Virus record (IMG/VR): IMGVR_UViG_3300027782_000047
Location: 44,668 to 108,667 of that record
Origin: a virus
Direction: 5' to 3' (one strand)
DNA: 64,000 nt
Position numbers and translations under genes: made by a program. Below, one piece after another: positions 57,065-58,091 of this stretch. Within the stretch, counting starts at the first letter, position 1. The number at the start of each line of letters is the position of its first letter. The notes under the pieces were generated by a model. The model saw only the letters and a program-made list of their open reading frames with translations. It had not been told where the DNA came from and did no database searches.

Positions 57065-57466
57065 ATGGTCGACTTATCAACCTTTGTTGAGGTGACGCTA
57101 AACGAACACGATGATTTTTTAAAAGTGAGAGAAACGCTAACCAGAATTGGTGTATCCTCACGCAAAGAACGGGTTCTATACCAGTCTTGCCACATCTTAC
57201 ACAAACGCGGACAGTATTATATTGTCCACTTTAAAGAATTATTCGCACTAGACGGAAAACCATCTAGCATCATAGATAACGATATTGAAAGGCGAAACGC
57301 AATAGCTAAACTCCTAGAAGAATGGGGTCTAGTTAAGATTGTTAATCCTGACATTATGGTAGACAAGATTGCTCCGATTCATCAAATTAAGATTATATCT
57401 TACAAAGAAAAAGATGAATGGGAACTAGTCAGCAAGTATAACATCGGAAAGAAATCTCAAGAATGA
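57065..57466 (+). CDS. regA: RegA translational repressor
   Basis: The protein has 133 residues (T4 RegA has 122). FVEVTLNEHDDFLKVRETLTRIGVSSRKERVLYQSCHILHKRGQYYIVHFKELFALDGK is the conserved RNA-binding core. In T4, RegA binds start regions of early mRNAs including 44, 45 and 62 and its own. Eleven C-terminal residues extend beyond the T4 length. A structured RNA region follows before hsp20. Confidence 0.93.
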   Translation: MVDLSTFVEVTLNEHDDFLKVRETLTRIGVSSRKERVLYQSCHILHKRGQYYIVHFKELFALDGKPSSIIDNDIERRNAIAKLLEEWGLVKIVNPDIMVDKIAPIHQIKIISYKEKDEWELVSKYNIGKKSQE

Positions 57467-57486: not shown

Positions 57487-57494
57487 TATAAATA
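57487..57494 (+). promoter_or_regulatory. T4-type late promoter box (TATAAATA)
   Basis: An exact TATAAATA lies 20 bases after the regA stop. It is unusual in that it precedes non-structural DNA: the transcript would begin near 57500 and carry the structured element upstream of hsp20. Confidence 0.65.
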
Positions 57495-57500
57495 ATTGTT

Positions 57501-57620
57501 CCCACCTTAGGGCTGTTTGATGCTACGGTATAAGGCGTCCGTGTAATTACACCTCCGACACGATAGTTCGGACCAGTATAAGGTAAGCTGGAAGTTATGC
57601 CTTCGGGGTAACATTTTTTT
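57501..57620 (+). ncRNA. Candidate structured RNA (leader or small RNA) upstream of hsp20
   Basis: This is about 120 bases without an ORF. Several helices can form: CCC/GGG around loop ACCTTA (57501-57512), GTGT-AATT-ACAC (57541-57552), TCCGA/TCGGA (57554-57572), and CCAG/CTGG (57573-57591). The loop of the first (ACCTTA) is perfectly complementary to TAAGGT at 57579-57584 in the loop of the last, allowing a kissing interaction. The element ends with a cUUCGg terminator. It resembles no family that I recognise. Confidence 0.5.
57594..57620 (+). terminator. cUUCGg-loop intrinsic terminator before hsp20
   Basis: The stem pairs GTTAT..CC (57594-57601, one bulged G) with GGGTAAC (57606-57612), closing a canonical C(UUCG)G loop at 57602-57605. 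Seven T follow at 57614-57620. UUCG-loop terminators are well known in T4. As hsp20 begins 25 bases later with no promoter in between, read-through or regulated attenuation is implied. Confidence 0.8.
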
Positions 57621-57644
57621 AACTTGCTTTTAAAGGAGAACTTT

Positions 57645-58091
57645 ATGACAACATTAAGATTCACACATCTATACCCTTCCGTTGTTGGCTTTGACCGACT
57701 ACTTGACACATTTGATACCATGCTAACGGAAAAACCTACCACTTTCCCTCCACACAACATTGTTAAAGTTGATGATAATAATTATCTTGTTGAACTTGCT
57801 GTTGCTGGATTCGCAGAAAGTGAAATCACTATTGAGGTGTTGAAAAATACTTTGACTATCAAAGGTGAAAAAAGCCTTGATGACACCAGAAACTATTTAC
57901 ATCGTGGTATTGGCACACGTTCGTTTAAGAAAACTGTAACGTTGGCTGATACTGTGCAAGTTGATGGTGCAAGTTTGGATAATGGTGTTCTTACAGTAAA
58001 ACTTATCAATATTGTACCAGTTGAAAAACAACCGGTTAAAATTGCTATCAATACAGTAAGTAAACCACAATTACTCCAAGAAAAAGTTTAA
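57645..58091 (+). CDS. Small heat-shock protein (Hsp20/alpha-crystallin)
   Basis: The protein has 148 residues from the ATG at 57645, with AAAGGAG 6 bases upstream. The N-terminus RFTHLYPSVVGFDRLLDTFDTM matches IbpA-type proteins. The alpha-crystallin domain covers FPPHNIVKVDDNNYLVELAVAGFAESEITIEVLKNTLTIKGEK to LDNGVLTVKLINIVPVEKQPVKI. Hsp20 genes are common in aquatic T4-like phages. It is a holdase chaperone probably active in late infection. Its expression may be governed by the upstream RNA and terminator. Confidence 0.93.
   Translation: MTTLRFTHLYPSVVGFDRLLDTFDTMLTEKPTTFPPHNIVKVDDNNYLVELAVAGFAESEITIEVLKNTLTIKGEKSLDDTRNYLHRGIGTRSFKKTVTLADTVQVDGASLDNGVLTVKLINIVPVEKQPVKIAINTVSKPQLLQEKV

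Follow-up and report, generated by a model that had tools for sequence, protein, structure and literature searches.

The hsp20 gene is a core gene of cyanomyophages. In Pseudomonas, the short ROSE-like RNA thermometers of ibpA consist of two hairpins, in which a U(U/C)GCU motif pairs with the Shine-Dalgarno (SD) sequence with an extra G opposite, and of which hairpin II melts while hairpin I does not (PMC3669281). Structured RNAs have also been described in phages, among them the manA motif (RF01745), a T4-like cyanophage RNA reported in the 5' UTRs of ibpA chaperones and other genes, and the wcaG motif (RF01761), a candidate cis-regulatory RNA of cyanophages with a 98-position model (PMC2864571). 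The methylophage Melnitz, a related aquatic T4-like phage, has a glutamine (glnA-type) riboswitch, which is likewise a structured RNA regulator but differs from the present case in RNA and gene context (PMC9004378); the riboswitch and hsp20 passages of that paper mention no ROSE-like leader. In the open-licence papers covered by a literature search, no ROSE-like leader was reported for a phage.

Here, we analysed a window of 64,000 nucleotides, part of a virus record of 108,667 bases (IMG/VR IMGVR_UViG_3300027782_000047), in which a 158-nt stretch (57487-57644) separates regA (PF01818) from hsp20 (PF00011) within a T4-type gene order of clamp loader, regA, gap, hsp20 and metallophosphoesterase (Table 1). 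The best isolate relatives of the window's Hsp20 among the matches listed are two Kyanoviridae, namely phage C48C1 and methylophage Melnitz-2. The original prediction for this gap, made from the letters of the window, had its sequence and coordinates right, namely the 158-nt length, TATAAATA at 57487, a cUUCGg hairpin followed by T7, and three loop or TAAGG sites. On its own, the window offers little to judge the predicted functions by, since the minimum free energy of the gap RNA is not unusual (z = -0.62) and the count of TATAAATA in the window is at chance (6 compared to 5.4 expected), so that significance comes from the relatives. The gap also gave zero matches to Rfam at E ≤ 5. Protein searches with Hsp20 and RegA yielded more than 130 IMG/VR loci, in which the distance from regA to hsp20 ranges from 82 to ~600 nt and in which two features recur: an optional block of ~90 nt that starts with CACCUUAGG (element A), and a hairpin followed by AACUYGCUU..AGGAG, which is nearly always present directly 5' of hsp20.

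Table 1 Features of the regA-hsp20 region, in window coordinates.
Feature	Position	Strand	Evidence or remark
regA, translational repressor, upstream neighbour	57065-57466	+	Pfam PF01818 4.8e-47; PHROG translation repressor
Remnant of ~61-aa ORF, ends AAG-TTG-TAT-AAA-TAA	57467-57497	+	ORF seen in the 351-nt gaps of relatives
TATAAATA, probable T4-type late promoter box, also last codons of the ORF remnant	57487-57494	+	
Element A, double-pseudoknot RNA	57501-57591	+	Covariation on A1, 24 pairs; 107.8 bits in the window
P0, CCC-[ACCUUA]-GGG, loop near-invariant	57501-57512	+	Outer pair C-G in 68 and U-A in 32 of 103 distinct sequences
P2 hairpin	57513-57516 with 57525-57528	+	98% paired; C-G/U-G and U-A/C-G exchange
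Pseudoknot 1, CGUG 57540-57543 with P4-loop CACG 57559-57562	57540-57562	+	98.4% paired
Pseudoknot 2, ACC 57551-57553 with P5-loop GGU 57582-57584	57551-57584	+	159/159 cells paired
P4, 57554-57558 with 57568-57572; 9-nt loop, mostly nnCGnnAnn	57554-57572	+	99.1% paired; double changes at 5/5 pairs
P5, 57573-57577 with 57587-57591; 9-nt loop AnnnnGUAA	57573-57591	+	99.2% paired; double changes at 4/5 pairs
Two-hairpin ROSE-like thermometer	57594-57638	+	Hairpin I covariation; conserved motif with Shine-Dalgarno
Hairpin I of the ROSE-like thermometer, GUUAU-g-CC-UUCG-GG-GUAAC, bulged G57599	57594-57612	+	Covariation, 54 sequences
T7 run, not conserved	57614-57620	+	T-run of at least 5 in only 28/92 distinct leaders
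Hairpin II, C57623-G57638, U57624-A57637, U57625-G57636, C57627-G57635, U57628-A57634; G57626 bulged	57623-57638	+	
hsp20, small heat-shock chaperone	57645-58091	+	Pfam PF00011 4.2e-17; PHROG Hsp20

Element A and its pairing across relatives

Copies of element A were collected by a DNA-pattern scan that is unbiased for gene context and by a second scan for the divergent group III (CACCUUAGGACCG), and one named structure of 24 pairs was tested on an alignment of 53 distinct sequences (A1). Overall, 98.7% of the cells were paired compared to 80.3 ± 0.7% in shuffles, 204 cells were changed on both sides (57 in shuffles), and the covariation score was 0.462 (0.146 in shuffles), while sliding the partners by 1-3 columns left 24-38% paired. 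Although these counts are inflated by relatedness, chance is an implausible explanation in view of the slid controls and of how many different stems occur (29 for P4, in a separate count of 95 distinct sequences). At the core, hairpins P4 and P5 stand side by side, and the 9-nt loop of each is tied back by a pseudoknot: pseudoknot 1 joins the P4 loop to a CGNG upstream of P3, and pseudoknot 2 joins the P5 loop, whose GUAA is invariant in A1, to the three bases before P4. Both pseudoknots exchange their third pair, which is U-A (25), A-U (9), G-C (9) or G-U (5) in the former and U-A (30), C-G (18) or G-C (5) in the latter, and pseudoknot 2 has 23 double changes compared to 6.6 in shuffles. P4, P5 and pseudoknot 2 are also kept in group III, a second, shorter clade in which the outer pair of P0 changes from C-G to U-A. 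A 2-bp helix P1 (57511-57512 with 57538-57539) showed no double change and conflicts with P0. Three loci (L028, L026, L029) carry an expansion of ~66 nt inside the P3 region with the P2/P4/P5 core kept.

The predicted presence of a structured RNA in the gap is strongly supported by this covariation. Element A of the window matched no Rfam 15 family at the gathering score or at E ≤ 5, and the relatives gave no Rfam match at element A at E ≤ 1; with an unusually clear covariation record, it looks like an uncatalogued class of double-pseudoknot RNA. The manA motif, too, is a structured RNA reported at chaperone genes, in T4-like cyanophages, but its model has 192 positions, and none of 11 records, the window's included, matched it at E ≤ 10. 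An identity with wcaG was also rejected: the window's record gave no match and the other records bearing element A gave only weak, chance-level matches, none above the cut-off and none at element A; true copies of wcaG in S-WAM2 and syn9 lie elsewhere in those genomes.

The base pairing originally proposed was a different one, a kissing interaction between the ACCTTA loop (57504-57509) of the small CCC/GGG hairpin and the TAAGGT loop (57579-57584), with a second TAAGG at 57531 competing for the same site to give two alternative states. The complementarity is perfect in the window; across the relatives, however, these loops showed 0 double changes and were 78.6% paired compared to 79.4% in shuffles, the pairing is lost in most of them (one C-G pair in 35/53 sequences), ACCUUA is near-invariant while its supposed partner loop varies, and the competing TAAGG showed no covariation. 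The UAAGGU loop does pair at a distance, as had been foreseen, but its partner is 57551-57553, and since pseudoknot 2 accounts for this loop, a switch between two kissing states is extremely improbable.

The ROSE-like hairpins before hsp20

Downstream of element A, hairpin I was 95.8% paired compared to 75.1% in shuffles, with double changes at 6/7 pairs (54 sequences). The hairpin and the T7 run about 25 nt before hsp20 can be seen by eye in the window and had been read as a UUCG terminator that would end a late small RNA or an attenuator. This is very improbable, because a terminator scan did not call the site and the U run is present in a minority of distinct leaders (Table 1) and in none of the isolate cyanophage leaders, which keep the hairpin. 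An uninterrupted GC-rich stem with a conserved U run, as in intrinsic terminators, was not found, as it is the bulge in the stem that is conserved. The conserved features are instead the bulged G of hairpin I and a CUYGCUU after the hairpin, followed by AGGAG, in fixed order.

These features are those of a ROSE-like leader. In the window, as in its relatives, it forms the part of the 5' UTR that adjoins a small heat-shock gene, at least one stable hairpin (hairpin I) precedes the sensing hairpin, and a U(U/C)GCU (UUGCU in the window) pairs with the SD sequence with an extra G opposite (G57626). The SD sequence itself (57634-57638) is paired with CUUGCU in hairpin II, and hsp20 starts 6 nt after it, at 57645. 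The motif CTYGCTT-N1-9-AGGAG was found in 127/134 distinct phage hsp20 leaders that had been chosen by protein homology; the U(U/C)GCU-SD motif was found in 226 loci and is readable in most of the isolate-phage leaders inspected, and in Synechococcus phage S-WAM2, a C-G pair of hairpin II is replaced by G-C, a compensatory change. When whole genomes were compared to ROSE_3 (RF02523), the hsp20 leader was the best match in W02 (1.6e-6), G001 (6e-5) and W01 (1.3e-4) and, more weakly, in G003 (0.004), W04 (0.03) and W03 (0.06). The window itself gave no ROSE_3 match at E ≤ 5, and no phage match attained the Rfam gathering score (43), the best reaching 34.1 bits. In computed melting curves, the SD sequence was not tightly masked in the window and did not clearly open with temperature in either the window or the homologue average, although nearest-neighbour models describe bulged helices poorly.

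As in Pseudomonas ibpA (ROSE_3; PMC3669281), two hairpins stand directly before the small heat-shock gene, and hairpin I shares the AUGCC..GGGU core with its bulged G. Unlike the Pseudomonas leaders, those of the phages belong to T4-like phages, are probably part of a late transcript, fall below the Rfam cut-off and carry the extra upstream RNA modules A and B (see below). By this analogy, the hsp20 leader very probably works like a ROSE thermometer. We call it ROSE-like and claim no formal membership of ROSE_3 because it misses the Rfam cut-off and its heat response is putative. The thermosensor-like leader for the chaperone that had been suggested from the letters of the window is therefore supported, through the hairpin at the SD sequence and not through the proposed loops.

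ROSE-like hsp20 leaders were seen in ten cyanophage loci (L357-L361, L364, L365, L367, L246, L247) and appear general in cyanomyophages, and another was found in the unrelated Pseudomonas jumbo phage Cassandra (L362), which suggests wide use or repeated capture together with the gene. In four loci (L157, L202, L223, L149), a protein of 70-91 aa follows directly after a thermometer-like leader, and hsp20 comes next where the contig reaches that far.

Genomic setting and possible roles of element A

Each record that matched strongly carries element A once, and these are T4-like (Kyanoviridae-related) contigs. Where the flanking sequence is long enough, almost every copy sits downstream of regA in the same orientation, and most are then followed by ROSE-hsp20; several hsp20-bearing relatives have no element A. 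In ~15 loci of several gene arrangements, it stands directly behind regA with neither ROSE nor hsp20, and it is still intact there (every pair of P5 and of pseudoknot 2 is kept, and of P4 all except 4), which indicates a function independent of the thermometer and argues against element A being a mere hsp20 regulator. In eight loci (L081, L291, L305, L308, L309, L316, L318, L337), hsp20 and the thermometer are missing, and element A, right after regA, is followed by the phosphoesterase gene with an apparent sigma-70-type promoter of its own. A blastn search of INPHARED phages returned no element A. Nine pattern matches in bacterial MAGs were treated as chance, as only L277 scored (15.2 bits, E 0.18).

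An exact TATAAATA, taken as a late box, had been noted at the start of the gap, and this sequence is indeed there; the same bases are also the end of an ORF (Tyr-Lys-stop), and their count in the window is at chance (see above). This ORF of ~61 aa, common in relatives between regA and element A, matches no Pfam or PHROG family; it is visible in the 351-nt gaps of close relatives (e.g., L007:5666-5848) and deleted in the window, the distance from regA to hsp20 being 182 in the window, L001, L015 and L016 compared to 351 in L005, L007 and L011. Across the relatives, [AT]TAAATA ends just upstream of element A (≤ 20 nt) in 31/118 distinct loci, compared to ~0.35 expected, and does so in 29/87 loci that keep ROSE/hsp20 but in 2/31 of the others; many loci have no late box next to element A. 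This enrichment, mostly with ROSE/hsp20, suggests that in the window and its like, element A probably opens a late hsp20 mRNA.

A further RNA was seen outside the window. Element B is an H-type pseudoknot of ~45 nt (YYCGGGAUGGGA-S1-[S2]-S1'-UAAA-S2') that lies just upstream of element A or of the ROSE-like hairpins (L069:2200, L093:870, L241:4919, L112:6596, L141, L188:282, L236:2907, L242:1981, L352:7182), with 38 distinct copies, 14 different S1 stems and no Rfam match where tested.

What element A does can be read in several ways. The compact pseudoknotted fold of element A, in which several loop residues do not vary (ACCUUA; nnCG..A; GUAA), its place 5' of ROSE-hsp20 in most loci and its tandem arrangement with module B in relatives would suit a riboswitch-like aptamer for a metabolite or protein that tunes hsp20 jointly with the thermometer. 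However, no expression platform with alternative pairing and no match to an Rfam riboswitch was found, and an aptamer of this kind is unlikely also because of the ~15 loci that keep it intact without ROSE or hsp20; where the phosphoesterase gene follows, the sigma-70-like promoter that apparently lies between the two would leave it nothing downstream to control. That element A is self-contained, present in single copy and retained without hsp20, and that a late box immediately precedes it in a quarter of its loci, would fit a stand-alone noncoding RNA, processed or transcribed late, whose gene happens to lie between regA and hsp20. We consider this doubtful, as no conserved terminator follows element A and the IMG/VR matches showed it nowhere but at the regA/hsp20 position. 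In its size, its double pseudoknot and the scatter of its invariant loop residues, element A may recall small ribozymes, and the intercistronic position would suit self-cleavage that separates the regA and hsp20 messages; such a ribozyme is quite improbable given that no Rfam family, ribozymes included, was matched and no cleavage site was identified. A RegA-binding role for element A is unsupported.

Our preferred guess, to which we give somewhat less than an even chance, is that element A is an mRNA-end domain that may protect the transcript. This seems to fit best because it matches both positions of element A, which would lie at the 5' end of the hsp20 mRNA here and, in phages where hsp20 has been lost, at the 3' end of the regA mRNA.

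Proposed organisation of the hsp20 leader

Taken together, the gap probably encodes a two-module 5' leader, element A plus the ROSE-like thermometer, for a late hsp20 mRNA. Transcription would probably start a few bases after TATAAATA, which would place element A first in the mRNA, as the 5' module; covariation establishes that this RNA of ~90 nt is closed by two pseudoknots. The next module consists of the stable hairpin I and then the weak hairpin II, in which CUUGCU with the bulged G masks the SD sequence, as conservation and one compensatory change indicate. If the parallel with Pseudomonas ibpA holds, hairpin II would melt on warming or under heat stress and switch on translation of the chaperone. 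More tentatively, the region could be a modular control region with a ROSE-like thermometer as its output and interchangeable pseudoknot modules A and B in front, so that several inputs would be combined with temperature, while element A would also act alone at the end of the regA mRNA.

Our analysis adds what looks like an uncatalogued class of double-pseudoknot RNA in abundant aquatic T4-like phages and points to RNA thermometers of the bacterial type as likely controls of viral hsp20 genes. If this is true, translation would adjust the phage's supply of chaperone to temperature in late infection, and this would bear on the outcome of infection in warming waters.
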